From positions 71,001-135,000 of the forward strand of contig JAODUO010000079.1 in assembly GCA_025642075.2 (NCBI GenBank): DNA of 64,000 nt. The letters are read 5' to 3'. The translations under genes and the position numbers were made by a program. The notes under the pieces were generated by a model. It worked only from the letters and a program-made list of their open reading frames with translations. It did not search any database and was not told the origin of the DNA. Origin of the DNA: Ridgeia piscesae (Eukaryota > Annelida > Polychaeta > Sabellida > Siboglinidae). Positions 999 through 56,091 of the stretch are shown piece after piece (positions within the stretch are counted from its first letter, which is position 1; each line of letters starts with the position of its first letter).

Positions 999-1921
999 GT
1001 GGGTGGAGGGGCGCGATTGAGGGGGGTGCGAGTCGGAGGGAGGGGTGCGAGTGAGGGGCATGATTGAGTGGAGAGGAGCGGGGATGGGTGCGAGTGAGGG
1101 GAGGGGTGCGAGTGAGGGAGGAGTGAGGGAGGTGCGAGTGAGGGAGGGGTGAGTGGAGGGGGAGGGGAGGGTGCAGAGGAGGGGGGGGGGGGGTGGGGGG
1201 GGGGGGTGGCGGGGGGGGGGGGGGTCTGGGTGGGGGGGGGTGGGTGGGGGAGGGGTGCGAGTGAGGGAGGGGGTGCGAGTGGGGGAGGGGTGCGAGTGAG
1301 GGGGTGAGGGGGGGTGCGAGGGGGGAGGGGTGGGAGTGAGGGAGGGGTCGGAGGGTGCGAGTGAGGGAGTGGGTGCGAGTGGGGGGAGGGGTGCGAGTGA
1401 GGGAGGGGTGGGAGTGAGGGAGGGGTGCGAGTGGGGGAGGGATGCGAGTGAGGGAGGGGTGTGAGTGAGCGAGTGGGGGAGGGGGTCCAAATGGGGGGAG
1501 GGTACAAGTGGGGAGGGGTACATGTGGGGAGGGGTACAAGTGGGGAGGGGTGCGAGTGGAGAGAGTGGAGGGGCACAGATGGGTGGAAGGGCCCAGGGAG
1601 GGGATGCTTCATATGGTGATTGTGTACATCTGTCTTCCTGTCACTGGTGTGGAATTTAGCTAATTAGAATTGATGTTCATGTAAAACAAAGTGTTTTAAT
1701 TAATAATTTTATTAATTTGTTAATTGTGATTACCGGTAACTGTAACGTAATCATAGTTTAATACTAAATTTCAAAAAAAAATTGTTAGTTAATTCTTCTT
1801 ATTATTTGTTATTATTTTAATACTTATTAATAATTTTTTATATTTATTATTTTAAGTTGTTTAATATTTATATACATTTACACTTACACATATCACACAT
1901 AGACGTGTATGTGTGCAGACA

Positions 1922-2835: not shown

Positions 2836-5800
2836 ACACATTTCAAACTACCATGGACCCTCTAAATTGCACATAAAAAGTTTCAAGATCCCCACTTCCC
2901 AAAAGAATTTAAAAAAAAATATTTAAGAACCACCCCAACGGGCCTGCTGATCACAATCAAATGGTCAGCCGCATGGACCCATAGACAGAGGCTAATAAAC
3001 AAACAGACAGAGAACCAAATGATTTTATGACATAGAAGTGGTTAGATTTATACAGTAATGTTCTTTTTTTAACTTTACAAAATGGTGGATTGGCGCAAGA
3101 TCCTCTGTTGGTACTAATTGTCATGAATTCTCACTCATCCCCCCAGTGACACACAGTGGTGCCATGCTTGACTCATCAGGTTACACGGCAAGAGATGTGT
3201 TGAGTTACGTATTAAATAAGTTTTATAGCTCATAAAATGTCCTATTGTTTCAAATTATCTACTTTTAACAGACCCTTCTCAGCAGACAATGTGTTGACTC
3301 ATTGTTTTACACTCCGGTCCATTTGTTCAATTGTTTTACACTTCTGTCCATTTTTTCAATTGTTCCTAGAGTTTCTTTTCCTGTAATGCCAAGATAAAAA
3401 TTCTTGGACAATATGAGTTAATTTTCCCTAATTGGGTAATAAGTTTGTAACTAGCAGACTTGAAGGTTGTAATTGTCTGTTTTATAATTTTGCTCATAAG
3501 TTGAAATTATTGCGCAATTCTGCCATACTTTAAAAACTTACTTTTATAACCTTCATGATCCACCAATGGTCCATATGTGTCCATCCATCCATCCATCCAT
3601 CCATCCATCCATCCATCCATCCATCCATCCATCCATCCATCCATCCATCCATCCATCCATCCATCCATCCATCCATCCATCCATCCATCCATCCATCCAT
3701 CCAACAGTTTTGAAATTTACCAACATTTATATTTTGATGCACTCCTGGTTGTGGTTTCTGATGGTTTAGGTGCTAGAGGAAATTACATTATCATAAAAAA
3801 ATTCAATGACAAGAAAGTTTATGAAAAAAAATACATCAGTACTTAATAGTTCTTAAAATAACATTTTTTTGGGTAAAAGTTGACATTAAATTTATAGATT
3901 TTCGCTGTCCAAACAAAAATAGATATGCAGTTTCTGTCGATGTTATTGCATTGTTAACAGTGTGTAGCAAACATTAAGACAGGACACCATATGTTTATCT
4001 GCACCACAGATAGCTGAATTTACACACACTTTAGTGATTTGATTGCACCAAATGCTGGAGATAATACAACATGCACACACGCAGTGATAGAGATGTTGAT
4101 TTAGGTGATAAATCCACAGTGCTGACAAAGTCCATAAATATGGCCACGGGGAACCAGCAAGTGGAACGAATTAATTTGGTAGAATTTAAGCAAGACAGGT
4201 CATTGTTATCATATACGAAGATAACCTTTTAACTACATCAGCATAAGTAGTGTTAGGAAGACCTGGACACTCAGATCAAATAAACTAGCATTTGAAAGTT
4301 TGGCGATTTGATTTGCTGTCCACATGGAATATGTTGACGTTTGACAGTAGGTGGGTAATGTTTGTTCAGTTGGTGGAACCTGGTTCTTCCTGGGGGACAG
4401 ACTGCTGTAGTACAATGGTTAGCACGTCCAGCTGGCATGCCAACATTCTGACTTCAGAAACTGAACAGGGTTCTTCTCCCTTGGGAAACCCTGTCATCAG
4501 GGGTGAGGTTGACTGTTGTTTCCATTAATTGTCATTTTTCTTTCTCTTTTCTTTCTTCATTTTCCCCTCGCTATGGTCAGCAGTCTCCAGTTCCCTCTGT
4601 CTTTTGTTCCATTACTACGGTCTCTGTCAGCAGTCTCCAGTTCCCTCTGTCTGTTGTTCCCTTACTACGGTCTCTGTCAGCAGTCTCCAGTTCCCTCTGT
4701 CTGTTGTTCCCTTACTACGGTCTCTGTCAGCAGTCTCCAGTTCCCTCTGTCTGTTGTTCCATTACTACGGTCTCTGTCAGCAGTCTCCAGTTCCCTCTGT
4801 CTGTTGTTCCCTTACTATGGTCTCTGTCAGCAGTCTCCAGTTCCTCTGTCTGTTGTTCCCTTACTACGGTCTCTGTCAGCAGTCTCCAGTTCCCTCTGTC
4901 TGTTGTTCCATTACTACGGTCTCTGTCAGCAGTCTCCAGTTCCCTCTGTCTGTTGTTCCCTCACTATGGTCTCTGTCAGCAGTCTCCAGTTCCCTCTGTC
5001 TGTTGTTCCCTTACTACGGTCTCTGTCAGCAGTCTCCAGTTCCCTCTGTCTGTTGTTCCTTACTACGGTCTCTGTCAGCAGTCTCCAGTTCCCTCTGTCT
5101 GTTGTTCCTTACTACGGTCTCTGTCAGCAGTCTCCAGTTCCCTCTGTCTGTTGTTCCTTCACTACGGTCTCTGTCAGCAGTCTCCAGTTCCCTCTGTCTG
5201 TTGTTCCCTCGCTACGGTCTCTGTCAGCAGTCTCCAGTTCCCTCTGTCTGTTGTTCCCTTACTACGGTCTCTGTCAGCAGTCTCCAGTTCCCTCTGTCTG
5301 TTGTTCCCTTACTACGGTCTCTGTCAGCAGTCTCCAGTTCCCTCTGTCTGTTGTTCCCTTACTATGGTCTCTGTCAGCAGTCTCCAGTTCCCTCTGTCTG
5401 TTGTTCCCTTACTATGGTCTCTGTCAGCAGTCTCCAGTTCCCTCTGTCTGTTGTTCCCTTACTACGGTCTCTGTCAGCAGTCTCCAGTTCCCTCTGTCTG
5501 TTGTTCCCTTACTACGGTCTCTGTCAGCAGTCTCCAGTTCCCTCTGTCTGTTGTTCCCTTACTACGGTCTCTGTCAGCAGTCTCCAGTTCCCTCTGTCTG
5601 TTGTTCCCTTACTACGGTCTCTGTCAGCAGTCTCCAGTTCCCTCTGTCTGTTGTTCCCTTACTACGGTCTCTGTCAGCAGTCTCCAGTTCCCTCTGTCTG
5701 TTGTTCCCTTACTACGGTCTCTGTCAGCAGTCTCCAGTTCCCTCTGTCTGTTGTTCCCTTACTACGGTCTCTGTCAGCAGTCTCCAGTTCCCTCTGTCTG

Positions 5801-8800
5801 TTGTTCCCTTACTACGGTCTCTGTCAGCAGTCTCCAGTTCCCTCTGTCTGTTGTTCCCTTACTACGGTCTCTGTCAGCAGTCTCCAGTTCCCTCTGTCTG
5901 TTGTTCCATTACTACGGTCTCTGTCAGCAGTCTCCAGTTCCCTCTGTCTGTTGTTCCCTTACTACGGTCTCTGTCAGCAGTCTCCAGTTCCCTCTGTCTG
6001 TTGTTCCCTTACTACGGTCTCTGTCAGCAGTCTCCAGTTCCCTCTGTCTGTTGTTCCCTTACTACGGTCTCTGTCAGCAGTCTCCAGTCTCTGTCTGTTT
6101 TCCTTCATAGTCTCTGTCACAGTCTCCAGTTCCCTCTGTCTGTTGTTCCTTACTACGGTCTCTGTCAGCAGTCTCCAGTTCCCTCTGTCTGTTGTTCCCT
6201 TACTACGGTCTCTGTCAGCAGTCTCCAGTTCCCTCTGTCTGTTGTTCCATTACTACGGTCTCTGTCAGCAGTCTCCAGTTCCCTCTGTCTGTTGTTCCCT
6301 TCTAACGGTCTCTTCAGCAGTCTCCAGTTCCCTCTGTCTGTTGTTCCCTTACTACGGTCTCTGTCAGCAGTCTCCAGTTCCCTCTGTCTGTTGTTCCCTT
6401 ACTACGGTCTCTGTCAGCAGTCTCCAGTTCCCTCTGTCTGTTGTTCCCTTACTACGGTCTCTGTCAGCAGTCTCCAGTTCCCTCTGTCTGTTGTTCCCTT
6501 ACTATGTTCTCTGTCAGCAGTCTCCAGTTCTCTCTGTCTGTTGTTCCTTCACTATGGTCTCTGTCAACAGTCTCCAGTTCCCTCTGTCTGTTGTTCCCTT
6601 ACTACGGTCTCTGTCAGCAGTCTCCAGTTCCCTCTGTCTGTTGTTCCCTCACTACGGTCTCTGTCAGCAGTCTCCAGTTCTCTCTGTCTTTTGTTCCTTC
6701 ACTACGGTCTCTGTCAGCAGTCTCCAGTTCCCTCTGTCTGTTGTTCCCTTACTACGGTCTCTGTCAGCAGTCTCCAGTTCCCTCTGTCTGTTGTTCCCTT
6801 ACTACGGTCTCTGTCAGCAGTCTCCAGTTCCCTCTGTCTGTTGTTCCCTTACTACGGTCTCTGTCAGCAGTCTCCAGTTCTCTCTGTCTTTTGTTCCATT
6901 ACTACGGTCTCTGTCAACAGTCTCCAGTTCCCTCTGTCTGTTGTTCCATTACTACGGTCTCTGTCAACAGTCTCCAGTTCTCTCTGTCTTTTGTTCCATT
7001 ACTACGGTCTCTGTCAACAGTCTCCAGTTCTCTCTGTCTTTTGTTCCATTACTACGGTCTCTGTCAACAGTCTCCAGTTCCCTCTGTCTGTTGTTCCATT
7101 ACTACGGTCTCTGTCAACAGTCTCCAGTTCTCTCTGTCTTTTGTTCCATTACTACGGTCTCTGTCAGCAGTCTCCAGTTCTCTCTGTCTTTTGTTCCTTC
7201 ACTATGGTCTCTGTCATCAGTCTCCAGTTCCCTCTGTCTGTTGTTCCATTACTACGGTCTCTGTCAGCAGTCTCCAGTTCCCTCTGTCTGTTGTTCCCTT
7301 ACTACGGTCTCTGTCAGCAGTCTCCAGTTCTCTCTGTCTGTTGTTCCCTTACTACGGTCTCTGTCAGCAGTCTCCAGTTCCCTCTGTCTGTTGTTCCCTT
7401 ACTACGGTCTCTGTCAACAGTCTCCAGTTCTCTCTGTCTTTTGTTCCATTACTACGGTCTCTGTCAGCAGTCTCCAGTTCTCTCTGTCTGTTGTTCCCTT
7501 ACTACGGTCTCTGTCAACAGTCTCCAGTTCTCTCTGTCTTTTGTTCCCTTACTACGGTCTCTGTCAGCAGTCTCCAGTTCCCTCTGTCTGTTGTTCCCTT
7601 ACTACGGTCTCTGTCAGCAGTCTCCAGTTCCCTCTGTCTGTTGTTCCCTTACTACGTCTCTGTCAACAGTCTCCAGTTCTCTCTGTCTTTTGTTCCCTTA
7701 CTACGGTCTCTGTCAACAGTCTCCAGTTCTCTCTGTCTTTTGTTCCATTACTACGGTCTCTGTCAACAGTCTCCAGTTCTCTCTGTCTTTTGTTCCATTA
7801 CTACGGTCTCTGTCAGCAGTCTCCAGTTCCCTCTGTCTGTTGTTCCCTTACTACGGTCTCTGTCAGCAGTCTCCAGTTCTCTCTGTCTGTTGTTCCCTTA
7901 CTACGGTCTCTGTCAACAGTCTCCAGTTCTCTCTGTCTTTTGTTCCCTTACTACGGTCTCTGTCAACAGTCTCCAGTTCTCTCTGTCTTTTGTTCCATTA
8001 CTACGGTCTCTGTCAACAGTCTCCAGTTCTCTCTGTCTTTTGTTCCATTACTACGGTCTCTGTCAGCAGTCTCCAGTTCCCTCTGTCTGTTGTTCCCTTA
8101 CTACGGTCTCTGTCAGCAGTCTCCAGTTCTCTCTGTCTGTTGTTCCCTTACTACGGTCTCTGTCAGCAGTCTCCAGTTCCCTCTGTCTGTTGTTCCTGTT
8201 CTCCATTGCTCTCCCACTCTTCCCAGGTCTCTCTCCACGCAGTCCTCCCATCGCACTCTCAGTCTTCCTCGCCTCCCTTTTCCCTCCACTTTCTGGGCAT
8301 CTGCTCTCTTTGCCAATTTTATGCGTCCCATTCTCTCCACGTGACCCGCCCATTTCAGCCTACTTCTCTACAGTTTCCTCTTTCAGCTTTCCTCCATGCC
8401 AGCCTCCTCCCTCAGTTCCCCCAATCTCCTAGCAACTCTCTTAACTCCCACGAATCTTCTTAACCAGTTGTTTTCACAAACCTATGCTTTCTGCCATTGT
8501 ATCTTGGTTAATGTCATCATCTTTAGGCCATACTTAAAAACTGTATGTCCCCCGTGAAGAAGAAAAAGTCTAATTTATTTAATTTAATAATTAATATTAA
8601 TAATTTAATTTGACATCCAATACCTACATGTCAATCAACTCAGAACAATACAAATATATAAAATTACAGCAAACATAGTGATAATGTATATGTTTAACAA
8701 TATAATCCAGGGCCAGGAGACTCGTCCTAGACCACTGACTCGCTCAAAGGTTAAATTTATTTACACCAAGATTATCAACGATAGTTAGAATTTGTAAGTT

Positions 8801-11800: not shown

Positions 11801-14800
11801 GTACCTAAAGTTTTTTTTATTAATTTACCAGTTTTGATACAGTCCCTTTAGATGTGTCACATTATTTTCACTTTCTCAGGCGGCTGGGAATCAGCACAGC
11901 GCGGAGGGAGATGGAGAGGATGGAAACTCTGTCGCTTCACTTCAAAGTCAGGTCAAGGTCAGTAGCATATAAAAGATTATAAAATAAGATTTTTATTTCA
12001 CATGTTGTTTTTGCAGCACAAAATTACAACCATGCTTAGTTATGTAAATTTTTGAAGTTGATCTTTGTGTCAGTGAAATGGTTGATGTTGTGAATGCGTA
12101 ATTGCACAGTCAGTGACTGAGTAATGTTACTGAAAATTTATTTTGTGTATTCCACATTCTTGATTTACATTAGTTGAGCCTGGACAGTTGACGTGACTTA
12201 CCTACTGCTGCACAGTGTGTGGCTTTGACATTGTGTGTTGTTTATCATTAAACATGTGTGACACATTTTATATTATGCATCGCGAGATGGCAGTCGACAA
12301 GGTGGGTGATAGGTCAAAATATAATCTAAAATATATCGTAATAAAACATTGGAATATATTCAGGTTCCACTTCAGCAAACAGAGAAAATATCCCAGAAAG
12401 TAGCTAGTTAGTAGCTACCCCCTAGTGTATACTGCCGTATAATAGTTGTCTAGATAGAGAAATCTCACTTCCAAATACAACAAGGAAATGACAGTGGTGT
12501 TGATTCTTACATATATTTCTCCACTGTGTGACTGCTGTGGGGTTGTGGAGACTAAAGACCCCAACAAGGGGTTCATTGGGCAAGGCTGACTAGAGACGAC
12601 GGACAGTTGTTGGGAAAATGCAGTTGAGGACCTCTGGTGTAGTTGTTTGACACATGTCTCTGTCTGTCTGTCTGTCTCAGGACCTCCAGCAGCAGTTGGC
12701 CAGTTGTGTTGATCAGAACCAGCATGAACTCGCTGTGCTGCAGGACTTGCACGCCCAGAAGCTCAGTGCTGCCACCCAGCGGCAGAAGCGAGAAGCGCGG
12801 GCGTATGAGGAGAAAGTGGCCAGTCTGACGGAACAGTTGCGGGCCTTTGGTGAGTCGGGCCAGAGGAACGAAAGCAGCAGTAACCAACACTAACGTACCG
12901 TAGTAACTGTGTGTCTGGAGGCTATGTTTTGGGCATTCTAATCGTAAATTATTTGTACTATCTGTCAAGTAACTAATTATATTTTATATATAACAAATTG
13001 TTTAAAGTCTGTGATAAGAATAACTAGTTATCGCCCAGTAATGAAGCTACAGTGTCCCCCTCTGGAGAGTGGTTCACAACTCAGTTAGCCTCCTGGACAA
13101 GTTTTCTAATAAACACCCAAGTAAAATGTTGTGTACGACCTTCGTGCTTTTTGAAATCCAATGCCAGTTGACAGATCAAATCCTACAAGACACAGGAAAA
13201 TATTCAGTAAAAACTGGAGCAACAACATTTTATGCATCTGCATTCACGTTGTTCTGTGTTTTTGTCAGAGAATGGCAACTCCACCTGTGGACACGAGAAG
13301 GAACTGTCAAAGCTGAAGGAACAAGTGCGCCACCTGGAGGAGATCAATGGTAAGATGTCGACGGATCTTGAGCAGATGCATGCGGCCGATCGCGAGAAAG
13401 GACGTCTGTTGGCGGAGTTGCGGGAACAACTGAAGCTGTTGGAAGAAGATCATGCAAAGGTGGGCATTTACATGTGCGTGTACACGTGCGTGCGTGCGCG
13501 CGCGTGTGTGATACTTTGGTTGCTATTCTGTTTTGAACATTTGTTATAAAGGGTAGGTTACCCATGACAGTTGTCATGTGTGCGTGTACATTGGTCAACT
13601 GACCTTGCTGAGATTTCAGATTGGATATTTAGACAGGTTATGTTAGATCTAATTGATATTAGGAATGTTCACCAAAGATTGTGCTTGCAAAATAGAAATA
13701 CATTTGGAGTGTGATTACGTGGGAACAAAGGCATATGCACTGGCTTGTGAACAAAACTAGTATTGTGACATCAGATGGAAATAGAAAGTTAGTCTGTCAT
13801 GCTGCTGTAATGTCAACTCGTCTAAAGATAGGTGGTTGCTGCTGAATTTTCGCCAACATTCAATATTGGCTTTTAAATATCATCTTCTCAAAAACCATTA
13901 TTTGCACCAACACAGGCATTGGAAGGCTAATCGTATATCCAGTTACCTGTCAAAAAACAACTGCAGTACAAATCGTCACCACTTCCCTAAATTTTGGGGT
14001 TCAATCCCCTGGATCCAATGTCAATGGTGTGATTTTTCAGTGGTGTCCATAAAATACACAAAAAGGCAAATTTGTTTAGATCTCAGGGTGTCCAAAAACA
14101 CACAATATCCAAATACATAGTCTTATGACATCATATTTTAAGTTTTCTGCATAAGACACATGTGGTTTGGCAGGTGACGGAGGAGAAGACGGAGATGTCG
14201 TCCCAGCATGCCTCACTGCTGGAGGAGATCGACGCACTGACAGAGGAGCGCCAGACACTCAAGATGAGGCTGTACGACCTCGAACAACAGACCACAGATA
14301 CAACCAATCACAACAACTCCACTGGTGTGTGTTAGAACAGTGTTACTAACTCAAGTGTCTCAAGTGTTGAGAAAAACACACTTTGGTTTCTTCTGGTTAA
14401 AGCCACTTCTAGATAACAGAGATACCATGCCAACAGATAGCTATAATGATACTATTGCCTGTTGTTTTGATAAATTTGTTTTTGTATGTAATTGTGTAAA
14501 TAGTATCCGATTCTTATAATTTCCATTTTCAAAATGTGCAACTCAAAAAGGAAAGAACTATAAAAATCAGGATTAAATCCAACAGAAAACAAGCTACACA
14601 ATCGTTAAATTGTTTTAAAAAGTCAGGTTTGATCAGCTTCATCACGATCAATTCTGTCTTTGTTTTCATCGTCTCTCTCTGTATCTAGGGGATGTGACAT
14701 CACAGTCACATGATCACGTCGCCAGCCAATCAGACACTCAGCAACTGGAGCAGCAGGTGCAGAGTTTGACCAGTGAACTGGACGCCAGTCGGCGGGAGGT

Positions 14801-17800
14801 GGAGGAGTTTGACCTGGTCAAGTCAGACTGGGCGATGGAGAAGGAAGCTCTGGAGGAAGTGTTGCTGACAATGAGGGAACAGCTGGCTGGGAAGACGGGG
14901 GAGGAAGATGGAGAGAAGGAAGGAGGGATGGGGATCGATGATTTAATGAAGGTAGGTAGTTTTGTTATGTGTGTGACTGAAGTATATTATTTATTATTTT
15001 GACAAAACTATGAAGTGACATACATTTGTTAAAAACCTCCTCAAAGATACATAAAAAACATTAAATATAAGTAGACGAATCACCCTTTATTTCAAAATGA
15101 CTGTAATATAATGAGTTATTAGTTTTAAAGGCAACAGGTCCTTTAAGTTAACTAGATAATTCTCGTGTCATATGTGGCACTTAAAAGGGACTTTAAAAAC
15201 ATAAACAATTTAATAACCCAATTAAATAATAATAAAATCATTATGAAGCTAAAGATACTCTAATATTCTAAGGCGTAGAACTTGAATGAATCAGTCAAGT
15301 GGTCCTTCCAACATAGTATGTGCACATATTTATAAGTGTGTGTGTTATAACCGCATGAAAAAGTTATAAAAGACCGTGTAATAGAAATTGGAACTACGCA
15401 TTAAAAACATTTTAGCCATTTGCTTATTATTTCAAATACATACCGTTATTTGAATTCAGGATCTAGAGGCAGAGCGAGAGAAGGTGGCCAGATTACAGAA
15501 AGAACTTCAACAAAATGCAGGTTTGTCTTCTGTTTATCATTAGTAGCCTGCACAGCCCCTCAATCAGTCTAGTTCACTCTAACATTGCTCTAATTTACTC
15601 AGCTGCATAACAAATTACTTTATAGATAGTAGTGCATACCAGGTGTGCAAATTAATTGAATCTTGGCTGAATTTTTCCCAAGTGAGTCAAAAGTGATGTT
15701 GGACTGACCAGTGTGAAGTGCTTGACACAGTCCTTGGTACTGGATACTGGGCTCTACAAGAACTTAAAGCTTGTCCCTGTATCAGAAGCCTGTGACTGCT
15801 GCAGGCTTTAGTAGCCTCCTGCAGTTGCCACAGCTGTAGTTGTCTGTTCATCACCTTACCAAACCTATGATAACTCATCAAGATTTAAATTATTTGTTGA
15901 CCTGTGATTCATTTCCACTCAGTCTGTCCCCCTGTCACAAGTTTGTGGTTTACTTGTACATGGGTGGTTGTATATGTGTCCAAAGCATTTACACCAGTGC
16001 GTTTCCACAATCAGCTGCATGGTGGTTTATATGAAGTAACAAGATGTTGGTAGTGAATACTGACCATATGTAACTGTCTGTTCTGCCTGTGTTTGTTGGC
16101 AGCGGCTCATGTGGCCCTGGACGACATAGAGCGAACTCTGCAGACGTCAACACAAGAGGCAGAAGAGGCCAAACTACAACTGCGGGAAAAATGTGTCGAG
16201 ATGGACAAACTTCAACGTCGGCTCGACGAAACAGAACAGGAGATCACCGAGAGTAATAAGAAAGTTTCCTGGCTGTCAACGCAACTAGAAACGACAGAAC
16301 TTGCGACGAGAAATGACCTAGAGCAAGAGTTGAGTGACTTACAGAAGCAGCTGAAAGCAAAGAACGAGGAACTGATGGACGCGAATGTGGAACTAGAAGA
16401 AATGAAGATGCTGATGCAGGAGAAAGGAGAGCAGGCCGATGCGTTGAGAGCTCGTTTGGAGGAGCAGGCGTTGGAGCTCGAGAATGCAGGAGCAGAGAAT
16501 GAGCAACTGTCGAGTAGCATAGAGGAGCTCGACTCGCAACACGAGGAGGCGATGTCACAGGTGATCACCACCAGGGAGAAACTACTGACTGAGAACAAGG
16601 CACTCCAGGAGCGATGTGCTGCTTTGGAAAGTGAAAAACTTGTAAACGAAAAAAGACTACGGTCGAGTGATGATGCCGTGAAAGGCACATCGAAGGAGGA
16701 ACTGAACCAACTGAGGGAGAAGTTAGAGAAGGCAGCGATGACACTCAACGAGATGCACATGGACAAGAAGGAGCTGGAGACGGAGGCAGTTTCGCTGAAA
16801 CGGAAAATCTCCGACCTGCAGAAGAAGCTGAAGGCGGGTACGTCGGAGATCACGTCGCTTAAACAGAAGAACCTGGAGCTGGAGATAGACGTGACGTCGT
16901 CGCGGGAGGAACTGTCGCTGCTCAAGCAGTCGGTGGCGGCTAGGGACGACTTGGGGCAGCTGCGGAAACAGTTTGAGGAGAGCTGGAATGAGAGCACGCG
17001 TAAGGAGATGTCGACAGAGCTGCACCAGGAGGTGGCGCTGCTCAAGGCTGATCTCGCCGCGGCACAGCTGGAAAAAGAGGTTGTCTCGCGGCAGCTGGAA
17101 CAGCTCAAGAACCGCGGGTCCTCGGACGATCAGGCTTCCTCCGTGACGGCGTCGCAGTCGTCCGTCGAGCTTCTCGCTCACATCGACTCGCTGCAGAACC
17201 AGAACGAGTCCCTTGAGAAGCTGCTCGGCGACACGGAGGAGAAGCTCGCCGAGATCGGGCAGTTGTACGACGCCCAGATCGTGACGACAGAGGGACACAC
17301 AGCGCAGGTGAAACACCTCACTCAGCAGGTGGACTCACTGACGCAGGAGAGAGACGCCGTGACGAGGCAGCTGAAGGAGAGCATGGAGAAGGTGCAGGAG
17401 GAGGTGCAGAGGTACGAACGGGAGAAGGGGAAGAACGAGGAGCTGGGTGCAAAAGTGTCGGAGTTAGAAGCGCTGTGTGTTGACCTTGAGAAGAGCAAGG
17501 TCATGCTGGACGAGACGTTGAGGGAGAAGCGAGAGGTGACACAGGCGTGGGAGGAGAGCAAGGGGTTCATCGCGACCCTCAGGGTGGAGAACGAGGGGCT
17601 GTTACGTGAGAAGGAGAACAGCACAAAGTTGATCCGACAGCAGCGGGCGGAGATTGAGCGATTAGGCAGCGTCGCCTCGTCAACAGCTGTCAGTGATGAC
17701 GCACTGGAAAACTCGTCGGAAGACATCAGTAATGAGCAGAATGCCAGTCGCACGAAGCCGTCAACGCATCGAAGCGAGAACGCAGATGGGAAGGACCAGA

Positions 17801-20800
17801 TGAATGGTCGAATCACCGCGAGTAAAGCGAACATGGCAGAACTGGAAAACCTACGAAAAATCATCTCGTTGAAGGACAACGTTGTCATGGAGTTGAAGGC
17901 GAGTAACGCGTCGTTGTTGCGACTGCTGGAAGAGCGCTCGCTTGAACTACACGGTGACCGCGTACTTGTCGAGATACACGAGCTCGGTGCAGAAGTGACA
18001 AACTTGCGACGCGAAAAAGAACAGATGATGTCGGTGCTGAATGAGAAGACAAGAGACTGCAGCTCGCTGAGAGCGGAGGTGCACCGATTAATGGGCGTTG
18101 TTTCTTCGCAGAAAGCGTCTTTGTCACAAATGCAAACAGATAACAACACTCCGCAGAGGTCAGCTTCTGCCTCCGATGTACCAGCTGACAATAGCAACAA
18201 CGAAATGAGCCGTGAAGCAATAAAGCAGTTGTCGCAGGTGATCAGGGACAAAGACGTTGAGATCGAGGCACTCCGGCAAAAGAGCGACACGCTCATCGCC
18301 GTGTTGCAGGAGCAGTCGGCAGATGGCGCCGCCGATCAGATCTCGACGTTGATGCGAGAACGCGATAATCTCACCAAGCAGATCAGCGTGTACGTAGACG
18401 ATCGTAACCAAATCGTTGCAGCGCTCAATAACAAACACGAGGAGTGCGTTGCATACCACACAGAGGCCGGGCGACTCGCCGAGCTGCTCGCGAGCAACAG
18501 CACCGAAAAAGACAAACTTCAGCACGAGTATGAGAAACTGATGTGGGAGTTTGAAAACAAGAAACAGGCCTTGCTGAAGGCGCAGAATGAACTCGTTGGA
18601 TTGCGACAAAAGTGCTCCGAATCAAATCGGATGTATTTAGATCTGAAACAGAGCGGCATCAGGTTAGATTTGACAGACGTCAGTAATGATGACACGTCGG
18701 GACAAAATGACGGACGTGAATCGCAGAAGCTGATGGTCCTCATTGAGAACCAGCATGCAGCCATTTGCGAAAAGGATGAAATCATCACTGAAAAGATGAC
18801 GGCTCTTCAGGAGAAAGAGCAGCGATTGCTCGAGTGCGACCAGAGTTTGCTCGAGCGCGACCGACTGTTAAGCGAGAGAGAGAAATCATTAAACGAGTTG
18901 CGAGTTCAGCTGCACCGGGCCGAGGAATTGGGGAGTCAGAAGGAGGCTCAGCTGAGTAATGTGAACAAGCAGCAACAACACTCAACTTTCCAACTACAGG
19001 TGAGTGATGTGAACAAGCAGCAACAACACTCAACATTCCAACTACAGGTGAGTGATGTGAACAAGCAGCAACAACACTCAATATTCCAACTACAGGTGAG
19101 TGATGTGAACAAGCAGCAACAACACTCAACATTCCAACTACAGGTGAGTGATGTGAACAAACAGCAACAACACTCAACATTCCAACTACAGGTGAGTGAT
19201 GTGAACAAGCAGCAACAACACTCAACATTCCAACTACAGGTGAGTGATGTGAACAAGCAGCAACAACACTCAATATTCCAACTACAGGTGAGTGATGTGA
19301 ACAAGCAGCAACAACACTCAATATTCCAACTACAGGTGAGTGATGTGAACAAGCAGCAACAACACTCAATATTCCAACTACAGGTGAGTGATGTGAACAA
19401 ACAGCAACAACACTCAACATTCCAACTACAGGTGAGTGATGTGAACAAGCAGCAACAACACTCAACATTCCAACTACAGGTGAGTGATGTGAACAAGCAG
19501 CAACAACACTCAACATTCCAACTACAGGTGAGTGATGTGAACAAACAGCAACAACACTCAACATTCCAACTACAGGTGAGTGATGTGAACAAGCAGAAAC
19601 AACACTCAACATTCCAACTACAGGTGAGTGATGTGAACAAGCAGCAACAACACTCAACATTCCAACTACAGGTGAGTGATGTGAACAAACAGCAACAACA
19701 CTCAACATTCCAACTACAGGTGAGTGATGTGAACAAGCAGCAACAACACTCAACATTCCAACTACAGGTGAGTGATGTGAACAAACAGCAACAACACTCA
19801 ATATTCCAACTACAGGTGAGTGATGTGAACAAGCAGAAACAACACTCAACATTCCAACTACAGGTGAGTGATGTGAACAAGCAGCAACAACACTCAACAT
19901 TCCAACTACAGGTGAGTGATGTGAACAAGCAGCAACAACACTCAACATTCCAACTACAGGTGAGTGATGTGAACAAGCAGCAACAACACTCAACATTCCA
20001 ACTACAGGTGAGTGATGTGAACAAGCAGCAAAACACCAAAAAAACCCTCAACATTCCAACTACAGGTGAGTGATGTGAACAAGCAGCAACAACACTCAAC
20101 ATTCCAACTACAGGTGAGTGATGTGAAAAAAGCAGCAACAACACTCAACATTCCAACTACAGGTGAGTGATGTGAACAAGCAGCAACAACACTCAACATT
20201 CCAACTACAGGTGAGTGATGTGAACAAGCAGCAACAACACTCAATATTCCAACTACAGGTGAGTGATGTGAACAAGCAGCAACAACACTCAACATTCCAA
20301 CTACAGGTGAGTGATGTGAACAAGCAGCAACAACACTCAACATTCCAACTACAGGTGAGTGATGTGAACAAGCAGCAACAACACTCAACATTCCAACTAC
20401 AGGTGAGTGATGTGAACAAGCAGCAACAACACTCAACATTCCAACTACAGGTGAGTGATGTGAACAAGCAGCAACAACACTCAACATTCCAACTACAGGT
20501 GAGTGATGTGAACAAGCAGCAACAACCCTCAACATTCCAACTATAGGTGAGTGATGTGAACAAGCAGCAACAACATTCAACATTCCAACTACAGGTGAGT
20601 GATGTGAACAAGCAGCAACAACCCTCAACATTCCAACTATAGGTGAGTGACGTGGAAGGTTCACGCCTCAGGACTTCATCACTAGTGTCGGTGGTCAGTC
20701 AGGCGTCACCATATTACCAAAATCTAGGCGACCACCACAAAAATGTCTAATGATAAATACAGCCTGCATTGTTAAAAACTAAGACGATTAACTTGCCCAC

Positions 20801-23800
20801 TAACAATCATGTCAATAGCCTGATTGCCTCATGTTTCAGGTAATTGTATAAAATCCATTTGATTGACATTTAACATGAGTTTAGTTATGATTTCTGTGCG
20901 GTTGGTAGAATATGATTTGTGAAATTGAATTGCTAAAAACAGTTATTTTGCGAAATGGATTAAAAGGATTAAAATCTTAATACCGGGATTAACACTGAGG
21001 TCGGATTCCGAGGATATTGGCGCCTTAGAAGTTATTTATTATTATGTCATCAGTAATCAATTACAAAAAATAATATACAGACATGTGAACAAACCAATTC
21101 TGGTTATTTTATAGACTCAAGTCTTTCAAAGTGTGTCTAAATCACAACACAAATATTTTAAAATAAATTCAGAAAGCCGCCTAATTTGTGCGTCTGTTTT
21201 CCTCCAGGGTCTACAGACCGAGGTCGCTGACCTTCGCTCCAAGTGCGCGCAGCTTGTCGGAGCGCAACGATGTCCTCCAGTCGGAGTTAACAACCTGCGA
21301 GAGACGTACGGTCGCGTGTCTCGTGCCGTCAGCGACAAAGAGTTTGAACTCGCCGCGGCACAAGAGAAGATCAACTCACTGAGTCAACTGGTGAGGCACG
21401 ACTCTGCACCAGGTGGCGCCAGTAGTGACAGCGAAGTCGAGACGCTGATGCGGGAGAAGGAGGCCATTCACCAGCAGGTGGCGCTGCTGCGGCAGGAGCG
21501 AGACCAGCTGGTGTCAGCACTGCAGCAAACTCAGGTTGAGAACGAGCAGATGCAGGCGAAGGTGTGTTGCACAGAAAAAATGTTTTGGGGTTATCACTTC
21601 CTTTGGAAACTGTTCTGGACTTTGTTGCCTGCAGTTTAGGAGACCACTGACAATTATTTCGCTTAAATATTATATAACTGGTATTCATAATTTTTTTATT
21701 TTAGAAAACCAATTCCATCTATGGCCATTATTTATCATTCGCGTTTCTGCTGGGTAACATGTGGTATAAACCTTAACACCAATAAAGCACCTCGGCCAAC
21801 CACATGTTTTGTAAACAGAAGTAAAGATGCTGCTTTTCTTCCAAAGAGTAGTAGATGCAATATGCATCCTCTTTACGACACCAGTAACATATCCACAGAA
21901 ATACATATTCGTAGGCAGGCTCAAATGTAGTTAGATATATCATGCATTTCAGATTTCACAGCTGAGTGAACGTGAACAAAAATTAACGCGAGAGCTCGAC
22001 AGACTGCGCAACCACCTACTGGCGATAGAGGAGAACTACACGCGTGAGGCGCTCGACTCGGAAGAGCGAGAGAAAGACCTAAGGAATCGCCTCGCTCAAG
22101 CGGAGGAGAGGTTATTGTCGTCTTCCTCGCTGGTCGAATCAGCCAGGTATGCAGTTAAAAAATGTTTTTGTTCAACTTTTGTTCAAACCGATCCAAGATA
22201 CATCTGTATTTTATATGTGTGTCTGTATGTTTGTGTGTGTGGTTATGTAAAACTGGATATTAATTTGGCATTTCACATTCTATGGATGTGCAGCCACTTA
22301 GCCACTTGTGTCGCCACGTACTGGACAGTGGTGGATAAATAAGTGTGTTTGTTAGTCAACAGGCCAGCCAGCAGGTGGAGACACTGCAGCAGCAGTTACA
22401 CGTGATTGCGGAGCAGCGTGACGGCGCCCTCTTGCAGCTGGCGAACTCACAGGAGATGGCCAGTCAGTACGCCACCTCCCTCGCTAACCTGCAGATGGTG
22501 CTTGAAGCAGTTCCAGCACGGTGAGTGGCACCACCTGGTGGTACGTTGTGGAAACAATAGTATGAATATGTTTGTGTAGCATTGAGTGTGTGGAGAGAGA
22601 TGGAGAGGGAGACAGAGACGGATGGAGGGAGGGAGAGCAGACAGGCGGGCCGTGGCGGCGGCGGCGGCTGGCTGATACAAAGTGAAGGAACGAAGGGTGA
22701 GATAGAGAGGAAACGTGTGGGGAAGGAGGACGGAGATAAGGAGAGTGGAGGAGGATGTGAGGTATACAAGGGGAGAGAGGGATGAAAGTTGAGAGATGGA
22801 GAAGGCAGATGGGTGTGCCGGGAGGGAGAGGGATAGGGTGGCAGGAGAGAGACAGTAGGAGGGAGAGGTGGGGAAGAAGGAAGGAAAGGATCAAGAGAAG
22901 GAGGGATGGACCAATGGAGGTAGATGGTAGGAGGCAGAGAGAGGGAGAGAGAGAGAGGTGAGAGGGCACAGTGTGAAGGGTGTGGTTGTGTGTTGCAGAG
23001 AGAGACGTCAGAGGCCTGACAGAGCGTGGTCGGAACAAGACCAGTGAAAGGACTCGCAAGTCAGAGGTCACTCTGACATGCAGGTCAGTGGTCACTCTTA
23101 CGAGTCAGTGGTCACTCTTACAAGTCAGTGGTCACTCTTACGAGTCAGTGGTCACTCTTACGAGTCAGTGGTCACTCTTACGAGTCAGTGGTCACTCTTA
23201 CGAGTCAGTGGTCACTCTTACGAGTCAGTGGTCACTCTTACGAGTCAGTGGTCACTCTTACGAGTCAGTGGTCACTCTTACGAGTCAGTGGTCACTCTTA
23301 CGAGTCAGTGGTCACTCTTACGAGTCAGTGGTCACTCTTACGAGTCAGTGGTCACTCTTACGAGTCAGTGGTCACTCTTACGAGTCAGTGGTCACTCTTA
23401 CGAGTCAGTGGTCACTCTTACGAGTCAGTGGTCACTCTTACGAGTCAGTGGTCACTCTTACGAGTCAGTGGTCACTCTTACGAGTCAGTGGTCACTCTTA
23501 CGAGTCAGTGGTCACTCTTACGAGTCAGTGGTCACTCTTACGAGTCAGTGGTCACTCTTACGAGTCAGTGGTCACTCTTACGAGTCAGTGGTCACTCTTA
23601 CGAGTCAGTGGTCACTCTTACGAGTCAGTGGTCACTCTTACGAGTCAGTGGTCACTCTTAGAGTCAGGCACTCTTAGTCAGTGGTCACTCTTACGAGTCA
23701 GTGGTCACTCTTACGAGTCAGTGGTCACTCTTACGAGTCAGTGGTCACTCTTACGAGTCAGTGGTCACTCTTACGAGTCAGTGGTCACTCTTACGAGTCA

Positions 23801-26800
23801 GTGGTCACTCTTACGAGTCAGTGGTCACTCTTACAAGTCAGTGGTCACTCTTACGAGTCATGGTCACTCTTACGAGTCAGTGGTCACTCTTACAAGTCAG
23901 TGGTCACTCTTACAGTCAGTGGTCACTCTTACGAGTCAGTGGTACTTCAAGTAGTGGTCAACTCATTTCATGGTCACCTTACGTCAGTGGTCATCTATCG
24001 TGGTCACTCTTTCAGTCAGTGCACCTATTGTCAGTGGTATTCAGTTCTCTTTTTTTGCAGCTAGTAGTTTTTCACTGGTTGGGTTTTCAACCACTGTCAT
24101 TATGTTCAGATGCTACAATTTTGTTCTACTGCAATTTCGTTCAGCTGCTTTGATTGTATTCAGCTGCTGTGGTTGTGTTACGCTTGTGTATGTTCAGCTT
24201 TTGTGGTTGTGTTCAGGTGCTGTGGTTGTGTTCAGCTGCTGTGGTTATGTTCAGGTGCTGTGGATGTGTTCAGCTGCTGTGTTTGTGTTCAGTTGCTGTG
24301 GTTGTGTTCAGCTGCTGTGGTTATGTTCAGGTGCTGTGGATGTGTTCAGCTGCTGTGTTTGTGTTCAGTTGCTGTGGTTGTGTTCAGCTAATGTGGTTGT
24401 GCTCAGTTGCTGTGTTTGTGTTCAGGTGCTGTGGTTGTGCTCAGTTGCTGTGTTTGTGTTCAGGTGCTGTGTTTGTGTTCAGTTGCTGTGGTTGTGTTCA
24501 GCTGCTGTGTTTGTGTTCAGGTGCTGTGTTTGTGTTCAGGTGATGTGGTTGTGCTCAGTTGCTGTGATTGTGTTCAGCTGCTGTGGTTGTGTTCAGCTGC
24601 TGTGTTTGTGTTCAGTTGCTGTGGTTGTGCTCAGTTGCTGTGTTTGTGTTCAGGTGCTGTGGTTGTGTTGAGGTGATGTGGTTGTGCTCAGTTGCTGTGA
24701 TTGTGTTCAGTTGCTGTGGTTGTGTTCAGCTGCTGTGTTTGTGTTCAGGTGCTGTGTTTGTGTTCAGGTGATGTGGTTGTGCTCAGTTGCTGTGATTGTG
24801 TTCAGTTGCTGTGGTTGTGCTCAGTTGCTGTGTTTGTGTTCAGGTGCTGTGGTTGTGTTGAGGTGATGTGGTTGTGCTCAGTTGCTGTGATTGTGTTCAG
24901 CTACTGTGGGATTGGGTTCAGCTGCTGTGATTGTGTTCAGCTGCTGTGATTGTGTTCAGGAGCAGCTGGATGAGAAGAGCGAGGCTCTGGAGGCGGCGAG
25001 TAGACTCAGTGAGCAGCTGGACCGCAAGGAGGAGATGATCCACGCTCTACGGGAGGAAGGTAACTCACGGGTCACATGTAGACAGACTCTTTTAACCACA
25101 TCATTTTAACCTCTTTAGTCTCCATTCACCTACAACCAGCCAATCTGTCATAGTCACTGACTGCTGGTGTTTGTGAGCCATCCACTCTGTCACGTTTTCT
25201 AAAGGACGTTTTTAATCGGTGCTTTTTGTAAACCGATCTTGCCAAATGTGTATGATGGGTATTTAGAAATGCATTTCATTAAAATGAGATGGGATCTAAA
25301 GGATTAATACTGCAATTTAAAAATAGGGTTAGCAGGGTTGACAGTGTCATTTAAAAATGCAATTTATTAAAATGACAGTGTATAAAGGGATGACAGTCCT
25401 TACTTTCCTTTCTGGCCATTCTGGTGAGACATCAGGCAACAGCACTACTGTGTCAGCCACAATGAACAGATCCATCTTTCGTTTATTTGTGAGCAACAAC
25501 GTCTGCTAAGTCTAGTAACTGGCCATTGCAGATATGAAGCAGACAGACAGTCTGTTGTATATTGCTCTTCTGCCAACCTATCAACTTAGCTGTCACCTAC
25601 TAGCTTTCAGTACAAACAATTCACCATCTTCTAAGCCAGCTGTCGCTTATGAATGTTTGTGTCTGGCTTTTAATTATATCAGTACAGCATGAATTTAAAA
25701 CTATCCTAGAATGAATGTCTGATTATGTTTTGCGTTCAATGATAATGGATGAATGTTTGACCAGTGATACTAGATACTAACACAGCATGAATAACCTCAC
25801 AAGAATGAATGTTTGACCAGTGATACTAGATACTAACACAGCATGAATAACCTCACTAGAATGAATGTTTGACCAGTGATACTAGATACTAACACAGCAT
25901 GAATAACCTCACCAGAATGAATGTTTGACCAGTGATACTAGATACTAACACAGCATGAATAACCTCACCAGAATGAATGTTTGACCAGTGATACTAGATA
26001 CTAACACAACATGAATAACCTCACTAGAATGAATGTTTGACCAGTGATACTAGATACTAACACAGCATGAATAACCTCACTAGAATGAATGTTTGACCAG
26101 TGATACTAGATACTAACACAGCATGAATAACCTGACTAGAATGAATGTTTGACGAGTGATACTAGATACTAACACAGCATGAATAACCTGACTAGAATGA
26201 ATGTTTGACCAGTGATACTAGATACTAACACAACATGAATAACCTCACTAGAATGAATGTTTGACCAGTGATACTAGATACTAACACAGCATGAATAACC
26301 TCACTAGAATGAATGTTTGACGAGTGATACTAGATACTAACACAGCATGAATAACCTCACTAGAATGAATGTTTGACCAGTGATACTAGATACTAACACA
26401 GCATGAATAACCTCACCAGAATGAATGTTTCACCAGTGATACTAGATACTAACACAGCATGAATAACCTCACTAGAATGAATGTGTGACCAGTGATACTA
26501 GATACTAACACAGCATGAATAACCTCACTAGAATGAATGTTTGACGAGTGATACTAGATACTAACACAGCATGAATAACCTCACTAGAATGAATGATTGA
26601 CCAGTGATACTAGATACTAACACAGCATGAATAACCTCACTAGAATGAATGTTTGACCAGTGATACTAGATACTAACACAGCATGAATAACCTCACCAGA
26701 ATGAACGTTTGACGAGTGATACTAGATACTAACACAGCATGAATAACCTCACTAGAATGAATGTTTGACCAGTGATACTAGATACTAACACAGCATGAAT

Positions 26801-29800: not shown

Positions 29801-32800
29801 AGGACATTGCTTACATGTGACGGTCACGGATCAGTGGTTACATGAACCGTCTGTGCCTATAGATAGATGGTTGTTGACTTGTGCAGTGAGACAGTGTTGC
29901 TTATATATGAACATCTTGGTGGAAGGTGTTTGGCACATTGACAGGCAATGATCATTTTTGTAGTAAACACATAATGGCAGAAGTTTGTTAACCTTGGTTC
30001 ATACGTATGTATGTATGCATGGATGGATGGATGGATGGATGGATGGAGGGATGGAGGGATGGAGGGATGGAGGGATGGAGGGATGGATGCATGCATGCTT
30101 GGATGCATGCATACTTGGATGCAAGCATGCTTGGATGCATGCATGCTTGGATGCATGCATGCTTGGATGCATGCATGCTTGGATGCATGCATGCTTGGAT
30201 GCATGCATGTGGATTCATGCATGCTTGGATGCATGCATGCTTGGATGCATGCATGCTTGGATCCATGCATGCTTGGATGCATGCATGGATGAAAATTTGG
30301 TGCTAGTGATGAAAATTCATGCATGCATGCACATGCATGAATTTTCATCACTGGCACCAAATTTTCAACGCCACTTAAAACATTATGCTTCATTTAATTT
30401 GAGATATTGATTGTTCACAAAGATGTTCAACAACAAACATAGAAAACAGAGGCAGCAGGAAACTGCCTCACATTACATGTATATCACTCTCCAAACATGA
30501 GATAAGATCACCATCTTCTGCAAATGTTTGCTGGCATTTTTCTGATTTATAGACTTGTACCATAACCGTATGAGGAAGCTTTGTACCTTTGAGTACAGTG
30601 CAACAGGAGAACTGAATGCTCCCCGTTAATGATGTGCAATAAATGATCCCTTTTAGTGCAACTTCGGGAGAAGGAGTTGACAGCAGCGGAGGAGAAGGTG
30701 GCGGTGCTGAGTGGCTCGCGGGAAGCGAAAGTTGACAAGTCAGTGTCACATTTTCTTCCTTGTAAAGCTATAATAAAACTAACAAGAATTGAAAATATTC
30801 CGCTTCTGTGGCCATTCAAAGGAGAATTACAATTTATTTCAAAATATCAACAGGAGTGTATGTAAAATGTTGTTAGATAAAGGAGCGTATTCTTTAGACT
30901 TTTTAAACGGTGACGTTTTAGTTAGCATTTGCAAAGATCTTTTCTCATTGGTGGTGTCAGAACACAATAAATAATTGTAAAACCAGCTGGCTCTCAGTAT
31001 AACAAAACGAATGCCATTGGTCAATTGAACGGTCTCATTAGTATCAGAATATTTATAAAGAACATTCTAACTGGCTGGTGTCAAAGCACTTGTAAAGAAT
31101 ATTTTCATTGGCTGGTTCCAGAGCACTTGTAAAGAACCTTCTCATTGGCTACTTCCACACACCGACAGGGAAGCGTATAGAGGTGCTGCGACTCATGTGT
31201 AAGGTGCTGGATTTCAACGCCGACGAAATGCAGCAGGTAACAGTGTGTGAATGACTGGGGCTAGACAGTACTTCTATGGCAAGTGTTTTCATGCAAGACT
31301 AGTTTCATGTGGCTTGGCTAGGTTGCATTGATTTATTACTGTGCAGAGCTGTCTAATTTACTGGTTTCGGGACAACTAAAAATATTGTTCATTGATTGTT
31401 ATCATGGATAGTTGCGAAGCATCTACAAGTTACGTAGAAATGTGTGTTATAATGACCAGTAAAACAACATGCTCACCCACAAACAATGTACCAACATGAA
31501 TTATTTCATAAGTCAAACAACATGTACACCCGCATGTTATAAAAATACCAATATAAAACATTTTATATTGCATAGGATACAGACAAAATTAACTGAAGCA
31601 ATTTGTCACAATTTATTTAGTATGTGTGACAAGTTTCACACATTTCATACATGGTCTATGCATTGAACTAAAGAATGAAGCATAATGTTGTTAATCGTGA
31701 CATGCGTGTGACAGATTGGTGCCGACACAAACAGTGGGTGGTTGGGAGGACTGCTGCGGAGGGTGACACCCACTACCCCCACTACCCCAACAAAACCAAA
31801 TAAGGTAAGATGCCCTCTCTTGTGTATTTTCTATCTAGCAACTGTTGTCTTCGTCGGTTGACACCTGAGACTTCTTTATGTTGTTTAGACAGAGACGATG
31901 CGGGCATGTTTTGTCATCGTCAGAACAAAGTTTAATTATTTCAGTGGACAAAGGCGGGCCATGCTGACATACATATGCACACATGTGCACACATGTACAC
32001 AGCTGTATCATCACTTAACACTCATAATGATGTATCTGCATTAGTGCATAACTGGGTTGTTTTCTTTTACTTCCATTCGGATGTATCGGCAACTCACGAA
32101 TAGTGCTGCCCTCTTGTGATCAGTGTAGCACCATTGTCCAAACTTGCAGAATGGAAAGTAAAGAGTACACAAGTGTACAGTTCCAGTTTATATAAAAATG
32201 CCGATACATTATTATGTTTGATTATGTCGTTATGATTGGTACACACATGCATGTAGTCATGTACATGAGTGAACACATGCATGTAGTCATGTACACGAGT
32301 GGACACATGCATGTAGTCACGTACACATGAGTGGACACATGCATGTAGTCACGTACACATGAAGTACACATGAGTGGACACATGCATGTAGTCATGTACA
32401 CGAGTGGACACATGCATGTAGTCACATACACATGAAGTACACATGAGTGGACACATGCATGTAGTCATGTACACATGAGTGGACACATGCACGTAGTCAT
32501 GTACACACAAGTGGACACATGCACGTAGTCATGTACACATGAGTGGACACATGCATGTAGTCATGTACACACAATTGGACACATGCATGTAGTCATGTAC
32601 ATGAGTGGACACATGCATGTAGTCATGTACACATGAGTGGACACATGCATGTACACATGAGTGGACACATGCATGTACACATGAGTGGACACATGCACGT
32701 AGTCATGTACACATGAGTGGACACATGCATGTACACATGAGTGGACACATGCATGTACACATGAGTGGACACATGCACGTAGTCATGTACACATGAGTGG

Positions 32801-55200: not shown

Positions 55201-56091
55201 CGTTGACCTATTCAACGTCGCACACTTCAGAGCGAAGACCAAGATTACTCGGATACTGCTATTCGTAGATGACAGTGCACTGGTTGCACACTCTGCTGAA
55301 GAGATGCAGAAAATAGTGGATGCTTTCTCCGATGCGTCAAAGAAGTTCGGCCTGAAGATTAACATCAAGAAAACCGAGGTGCTGTACCAACCCAACTCTA
55401 TAAGAACTCGAGAGGATGATATCATGGTTGATGGAAACAAGCTGAACTCTGTTCTGGAATTCACCTACCTCGGAAGCACTATATCAAGTAATGGATGCAT
55501 GGTCGATGAAATACAGAGGAGGATGGCCAAGGCTAGTGCATCTATCGGTCGACTACGCCAGAGACTCTGGAACAACCACCATGTGTCCATGCGGGTTAAA
55601 GGCAAGATATACCGTGCAATCGTGCTGTCCACCCTCCTATTTGGAGCCGAGGCCTGGACAGTGTACAGACGACAGGTGAAAAGGCTGCATGCCTTCATGA
55701 TGCGACATCTGCGTTCGATCATGAGGATAACCTGGATGGACAAAGTGACAAACAAGGAAATACTCGAACGGACAGGGCTGCCATCTTTGGAAGATTTTCT
55801 GATCAAAAAGAATCTCCGGTAGAATGGACACCTCATGAGGATGTCACCAGACAGGTTACCAAAGCAGGATCTCTACTCTCAACTGTCTTCTGGTCACAGA
55901 AAGAGAGGGCGTCCTCATCTCCGGTTGAATGATACCATCAAGAGAAACCTGAAGCTGAGAGACATAAAGACGGACACATGGACATCACTCTCACAGCAGA
56001 TAGATAAATGGAGAGCATTAGTCAAGTGATGGAAGCAGTCTTTGTCGCTTCGCGACTGACAGCATGATGAAGATGATGATGTATGTGTGCT
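52280..56091 (+). mobile_element. RTE-clade retrotransposon, near full length, broken, with 12-bp TSD
   Basis: Target-site duplications TGTATGTGTGCT flank it at 52280-52291 and 56080-56091. After a ~450-bp leader, the APE-type endonuclease lies at about 52755-53477 (AQCNVRTL, LLLIGDFNARIG, MIDFIITR) and ends in TGA. The linker is split over several frames at 53639-54314. Reverse transcriptase blocks follow: [26 protein letters not shown] (54915-54948), LLFVDDSALVAHS (about 55257-55295, with FVDD as the catalytic box), and a C-terminal KRGRPHLRLND-type tail near 55900. The 3' end is gatgatgaagatgatgatg. At least four stops or frame changes make it inactive. Confidence 0.88.
54335..54934 (+). 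repeat. Perfect 300-bp tandem duplication inside the RTE element
   Basis: 54335-54634 and 54635-54934 appear identical at every base. The duplication covers the fingers and palm part of the reverse transcriptase and breaks the domain at FNKA. Being exactly 100 codons, it does not shift the frame, but stops occur at 54672-54674. Confidence 0.93.

Follow-up and report, generated by a model that had tools for sequence, protein, structure and literature searches.

Boundary-spanning minisatellites and the TRIP11 array

Minisatellites whose tandem unit spans an exon-intron boundary were named "mirages" in amphioxus, where they have been described at several genomic loci, including Adh3 and the globin genes BflGb6 and BflGb9, and at 5' as well as 3' boundaries (PMC3087553). 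Reverse transcription-polymerase chain reaction (RT-PCR) and the Adh3 data suggest that regular splicing is undisturbed by these repeats, and their length is unstable, for Adh3 even in somatic cells (PMC3087553). An array of this known but rarely described kind lies in the TRIP11 gene of the deep-sea tubeworm Ridgeia piscesae, in a stretch of 64,000 bases (positions 71,001 to 135,000 of the forward strand of contig JAODUO010000079.1, assembly GCA_025642075.2; hereafter the window, whose own numbering is used below). The last 48 base pairs (bp) of a large coding exon are followed there by 34 further copies, each closed by a splice donor motif, and the whole is probably a neutral, recently homogenised mirage for which no selected function needs to be assumed.

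As read from the DNA, the array fits the structural definition of a mirage. Its unit crosses the exon-intron boundary, as placed by the annotated gene model and by protein alignment, and splice signals recur throughout, GTGAGT following all of the unit ends (35/35). Mirages occur at both boundaries in amphioxus; within the one Ridgeia gene, a donor array is accompanied by two acceptor arrays, in a number whose excess over chance depends on the null. The likeness to the amphioxus cases (PMC3087553) lies in a tandem unit that spans the boundary and repeats its splice signals. The differences are of several kinds: amphioxus BflGb6 carries 6 and 3 repeat units in its two haplotypes, whereas the Ridgeia array counts 35 near-identical units; the Ridgeia array belongs to an annelid, has a period divisible by 3, is open over 22 units and has further junction arrays in the same gene; and the RT-PCR and Adh3 data on splicing come from amphioxus. 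Keyword searches of one literature library show no boundary-spanning minisatellite in tubeworms or annelids among the papers listed. The Ridgeia array extends the phenomenon named in amphioxus to an annelid.

Other described systems share single features with this locus. In human segmental duplications, minisatellites located at exon-intron boundaries may give rise to new introns, and transcripts retain the repeat (PMC2812944). As in Ridgeia, expansion took place at a boundary, whereas the human repeats have a mean of four 30-bp units, belong to recent paralogs and yield transcripts with and without the repeat (PMC2812944). Human tandem alternative donors also compete at a fixed distance, although these are two sites four bases apart (PMC2423196) rather than 35 at 48 bp. 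Earthworm metallothionein genes contain intronic tandem repeats and exon duplications that are absent from the transcript, which are not boundary arrays (PMC12783039), and in C. elegans an intronic minisatellite has been linked to multiple splicing decisions (PMC4039745). The word minisatellite is absent from the main text of PMC3902484. In the Rogers model of intron gain, as cited in PMC3087553, an AG/GT proto-splice site is duplicated, and the units of the Ridgeia array likewise hold AG|GT. Any two of them could in principle serve as donor and acceptor; the Ridgeia intron is nevertheless apparently an old one that grew longer, rather than a newly created one, because the peptide encoded by the unit occurs once in relatives. 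For potato RdRp, intron gain is reported to have come about through a tandemly duplicated AG/GT proto-splice site (PMC4974935).

Structure, host gene and origin of the array

The features at the array, in window coordinates, are the following:

16103..18999, + strand: large exon of TRIP11, closed by donor 1 (tblastn with P0002, P0003 and P0004; identical to the annotated protein P0001)
18952..18999, + strand: unit 1, the last 48 bp of this exon, encoding a 16-residue peptide that is single-copy in relatives (protein alignment)
19000..20642, + strand: units 2-35, 34 added copies with a donor at the end of each; unit 23 measures 58 bp and unit 25 measures 49 bp
within 19000..20642, + strand: units 33 and 35, which end in CTATAG
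20643..20654, + strand: intron start past the array, GTGAGTGACGTG, comprising donor 35 and the likely partner 12-mer of the founding exchange
21208..21561, + strand: next TRIP11 exon, phase 0, with two compensating single-base frame changes apparent relative to its relatives

Several lines of evidence identify the host gene as TRIP11/GMAP-210 of this vestimentiferan, the gene that the preliminary description had named. The C-terminal exons encode a GRAB domain (PF10375, 34.3 bits for a Pfam cut-off of 26), the searched region (residues 1150-1748) matches P0003, from Paralvinella, and P0002 at 44% over 95% of its length, and many relatives among the matches listed carry the name thyroid receptor-interacting protein 11. 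Used as tblastn queries, the relatives recover an ordered series of exons on the + strand that runs from 868-998 to 33861-34211. The best protein match, P0001 (NP493_81g01000), is the annotated protein of Ridgeia piscesae itself and is 100% identical; in this predicted model, donor 1 is joined to the exon at 21208. A sequence search of the PDB returned no match.

Tandem Repeats Finder (TRF) reports positions 18949-20654 as a tandem array of period 48, with 35.3 copies, 96% matches and a score of 3145; a chance repeat, considered as the origin of the array, was ruled out by this score. A direct motif count finds 35 GTGAGT donors, their first bases running from 19000 to 20643; the units were cut at this motif, and the TRF copy number is independent of that cut. 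Consecutive donors are 48 bp apart in 32 of the 34 spacings, those ending at donors 23 and 25 measuring 58 and 49 bp. The hexamer before GTGAGT is CTACAG in 33/35 donors and CTATAG in the other two (donors 33 and 35). Followed in the frame of the large exon (18001+3n), the array is free of stops until a TGA at 20071. When each donor is joined in turn to exon 21208-21561, donors 1-22 give an open, in-frame product (22/35) and the other 13 do not: with each of donors 23-35 a stop is reached before the following exon has been read through (13/13), and for 12 of these 13 donors that stop lies within the array itself. All coordinates that were checked agree with the preliminary description, which had reported a ladder of about 35 donors grown from the exon end at 18952..20642, and its further statements that exon and array are read in phase 0 into a phase-0 exon, with no stop before 20071, and that the first 22 donors preserve the frame are confirmed by these joins.

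The openness of the first 22 units was discarded as evidence of use: units 2-22 are open in a near-automatic way, by descent, because they were copied from in-frame exon sequence. The sole non-trivial fact about the frame is that the period of 48 is divisible by 3, for which the chance is 1 in 3.

The ancestral state can be read from the relatives, which were taken from the best 120 of 1118 protein matches (P0001 included), 117 of them aligning across the junction. No insertion is seen at this point in 114 of the 117 proteins, and the others carry 4, 11 and 11 residues. The Paralvinella protein reads LNNLRKQSDNLSFQLK and then GIQVDC, where Ridgeia has the 16-residue peptide of unit 1 and then GLQTEV. 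Since relatives have this peptide once, the old end of the exon is most likely represented by unit 1, with donors 2-35 as additions. The opposite polarity, in which the array would be the original exon and would have contracted later in the relatives, was ruled out by the 114/117 proteins that lack an insertion there. The ancestral donor would accordingly be donor 1.

An origin of the array by exchange is well supported by its sequence. Past the array the intron opens with GTGAGTGACGTG, a 12-mer identical in 9/12 positions to the exon sequence at 18952-18963, CTGAGTAATGTG, which begins 48 bp before donor 1; this level of match is reached by 5 of the 2885 12-mers of the exon and by 2 of the 389 offsets tested. 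The likeness of GTGAGTGACGTG to unit 1 is partly dependent on the array, because the same 12-mer is also the last, partial unit of the latter. The marker columns are better evidence of the origin than this likeness. All of units 2-35 (34/34) carry G in column 1, G in column 7 and T in column 9, where the exon copy has C, A and T and the intron past the array has G, G and C. Columns 1 and 7 being intron-like and column 9 exon-like in every added unit, the crossover falls between columns 7 and 9. The preliminary proposal of slippage between two similar 12-mers, one in the exon and one in the intron, 48 bp apart, is therefore borne out by these columns. The array would have been founded when TGAGTAATGTG in the exon and TGAGTGACGTG, with which the intron begins, took part in one event of unequal exchange or slippage; a single exchange in their common stretch automatically yields a unit made of the exon end and its donor, and the array could then have grown through ordinary minisatellite turnover.

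Neutral tolerance, use as a splice ladder, and other readings

In the reading that we consider probable, functional mRNA would be made mainly at donor 1 or at a few donors near it, and the remaining donors would be redundant. They would be tolerated because 22 of the 35 give an open in-frame product, the stop-giving products of the rest being presumably cleared by nonsense-mediated decay. Units 2-35 vary in six columns, of which two are synonymous, three are replacements and one is nonsense; one of the six falls within the nine columns of the splice signal, compared with 1.1 expected (6 x 9/48, counted by hand). The variation among units, a small sample of six columns, gives no sign of selection on either the peptide or the donor. 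The recurrent unit haplotypes (18A, 35T, 22A and 29C46T) follow one another in mixed order along the array, consistent with array turnover in the one assembly examined. Elsewhere in TRIP11, arrays located at supported junctions or close to them have periods of 19, 37 and 17 bp, none of them divisible by 3. Three points weigh against neutral tolerance with main use of donor 1. The frame-breaking lesions (units 23, 25, 33 and 35) are confined to the 13 most distal of the 35 units, a pattern that selection on the upstream 22 units could yield. The near-ideal 5' splice site that the preliminary description saw at the close of each unit is found as such, CAG|GTGAGT having the top score of the 16 donors taken in TRIP11, on a donor matrix and with one of the 16 (23083) belonging to an exon later found unsupported. 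Among equal donors, finally, the most downstream one is often preferred, which sits badly with main use of donor 1. To note, reading the distal lesions as a trace of selection is tempered by the fact that units 33 and 35 share one common haplotype, and array ends are usually more diverged.

Conversely, the ladder might be used: the choice among the first 22 in-frame donors would produce TRIP11 rods whose lengths differ in steps of 16 residues, and selection would favour that diversity. Such use, which we regard as unlikely, would agree with the 22/35 open and in-frame donors, with their uniform strength and with the confinement of frame-breaking lesions to the distal 13 units. It is opposed by the absence of visible selection among units, by the annotated model taking donor 1, by the poor fit of a 16-residue unit to coiled-coil heptads (16 = 14 + 2, a matter of reasoning), by neighbouring junction arrays that do not preserve the frame, and by protein searches in which an array-containing protein was not found. 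A query made of the exon end, four units and the next exon scored with 0 of 7751 candidates, and no array-containing Ridgeia protein is present among the best 120 of 1118 matches, P0001 being the only match listed at 100% identity; these negatives are weak evidence, because few Ridgeia transcripts may be in the database. An "expandable exon", as the preliminary description had it, is possible but unsupported, because donor 1 is the annotated one, the units reveal no selection and the other junction arrays are off-frame. On present evidence, neutral tolerance is more probable than a splice ladder in use. An AlphaFold2 model of the exon end with nine units (single sequence, mean pLDDT 75.3) was discarded, as it shows strands where a coiled coil is expected; structure models of perfect repeats are prone to mislead. 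A bolder extension seems improbable to us: some 22 equal donors in 16-codon steps, with graded choice among them, would give Golgi tethers of varying length, copy number would be a heritable, mutable tuner of that length, and junctions would act as founders of minisatellites. If this were true, the acceptor ladder and the other junction arrays described below would mean that splice junctions of the Ridgeia genome are themselves founding sites of minisatellites. The locus offers a natural test of donor choice, with up to 35 near-identical donors at near-equal steps and a predictable protein for each.

The preference for intron-proximal sites among equal donors also underlies a reading in which the array is a burden. 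Donors 34 and 35 would win, most transcripts would carry stops from the array and be degraded, and the output of TRIP11 would be lowered; all 13 donors from 23 on indeed give prematurely closed frames, 12 of them by a stop in the array. TRIP11 must still be produced, however, and the lesions in unit 23 and unit 25 may stem from consensus errors, as other exons of the assembly also seem to show single-base frame changes; we regard this outcome, too, as unlikely. On competing donors, PMC1877881 yielded nothing decisive. Errors of assembly lead to the last alternative, that a short mirage was inflated or a longer one collapsed, with the distal lesions as consensus errors. The apparent coding indels elsewhere in TRIP11 speak for it, as does an amphioxus mirage that was seemingly misassembled in the genome draft of that species (PMC3087553). 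The published Ridgeia genome is an Illumina assembly with a contig N50 of 10.42 kb (PMC9921365), which hardly vouches for an array of 1.7 kb; as P0001 is placed on a record of 627,631 bases and the window has no N, the latter probably comes from a long-read assembly distinct from it, for which a literature search found no paper. The mixed order of recurrent haplotypes resembles a true array history and not one read copied over, the window is free of N, and the boundaries and the founding markers are independent of copy number, so that an artefact appears very unlikely.

Other arrays at TRIP11 junctions, in the window and in the genome sample

Four further arrays lie at or close to actual or possible TRIP11 splice junctions:

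1005..1563, + strand: 17/16-bp G-rich arrays, starting 6 bp into the intron that follows exon 868-998 (exon by tblastn, exact ends by eye)
23084..23943, + strand: 20-bp array at the possible donor of a possible exon 22999-23083, of uncertain junction status (TRF)
24139..24959, + strand: 19-bp array, flush with the acceptor of exon 24960 (TRF; exon 24960-25059 by tblastn)
31056..31166, + strand: 37-bp repeat spanning the acceptor junction of exon 31122, in the GRAB region (tblastn, Pfam GRAB)

The 19-bp array contains 41 acceptor-like YCAG sites (33 TTCAG and 8 CTCAG), and 36 of the 40 spacings between them equal 19 bp. It forms the acceptor counterpart of the donor ladder, with the frame not preserved. 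In the 37-bp repeat, the copy at 31093 holds the acceptor; compared with this reference, the copy at 31056 matches in 30/37 positions, the exonic copy at 31130 in 25/37 and a degenerate one at 30932 in 21/37. The 3' end of the intron before exon 31122 resembles a copy of the exon start. Exon 22999-23083 has no homology support, and the array at 23084-23943 was left out of the junction counts.

Among 18 arrays, obtained by merging TRF rows by hand and excluding the two-copy row 1789-1845, three meet a homology-supported TRIP11 junction (the 48-bp donor array, 24139-24959 and 31056-31166) and four lie within 10 bp of one, the fourth being 1005-1563. When arrays are placed at random wholly within introns, the mean counts are 0.017 for touching a junction and 0.188 for lying within 10 bp, and 0 of 20000 runs reach either observed count; with a distance of 25 bp, 19/20000 do. 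This null keeps arrays inside introns, though two of the three junction arrays overlap an exon. A null that permits up to 51 bp of exon overlap gives means of 0.836 and 0.993, the counts being reached in 405/8000 and 117/8000 runs; including row 1789-1845 makes little change (455/8000 and 144/8000). The true null should lie between the two, because the overlap null takes no account of selection that would act against arrays within coding sequence. The surplus of arrays at TRIP11 junctions is at most suggestive: it depends on the null, was noticed before it was tested and concerns one gene. An earlier placement test (4/10 arrays, 0/4000 runs) was set aside, as it counted the unsupported exon 22999-23083. 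If junction arrays turn out to be common in siboglinids, one could observe directly how introns are lengthened, or exons extended, through direct repeats shared between the end of an exon and the start of its intron.

A wider survey joined the window to a sample of 20 pieces of 10 kb, 264,000 bases in total, 35,000 masked bases included. It yields 51 arrays covering 41,010 of the 264,000 bases, 17 of the 51 in the window, and depicts a minisatellite-rich genome. A strong donor within the unit is found in one array of the 51, namely the 48-bp array of TRIP11, which speaks against a wide pattern of junction arrays. At 16 places chosen from the 34 arrays of the sample (with two arrays merged at one place), open reading frames continuing past the array edge were judged by eye, and none of these arrays abuts a clear exon. 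A single place of the 16, in the piece L001, looked coding, by eye, and it is retroelement-like.

Some irregularities of the TRIP11 gene model accompany these repeats. The upstream exon 868-998 is absent from P0001, whose first residues correspond to read-through of the intron end at 12654-12680. Exon 22356-22520 shows one apparent single-base frame change relative to relatives, around 22507 (read by eye), and P0001 ends there with ..VLEAVPAR, so that this change seems to truncate the annotated protein. The frame changes in this exon and in exon 21208-21561 may be consensus errors or real.

Other repeats are of interest in their own right. Several arrays in the sampled pieces exceed 2 kb, and the repeat at L001:5293-5494, of 31-bp units, sits in an apparent retroelement polyprotein (by eye), away from splice sites. 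In the window, a 50-bp array at 4576-8196 extends over 3.6 kb (72.7 copies), is open throughout in two frames and touches no exon of the model. The array at 33610-33807 (16-bp unit, 12.4 copies, 100% matches) is probably a very recent expansion, and a 300-bp tandem duplication at 54335-54935, also with 100% matches, is located in an apparent retroelement coding stretch (about 52629-55822, by eye).
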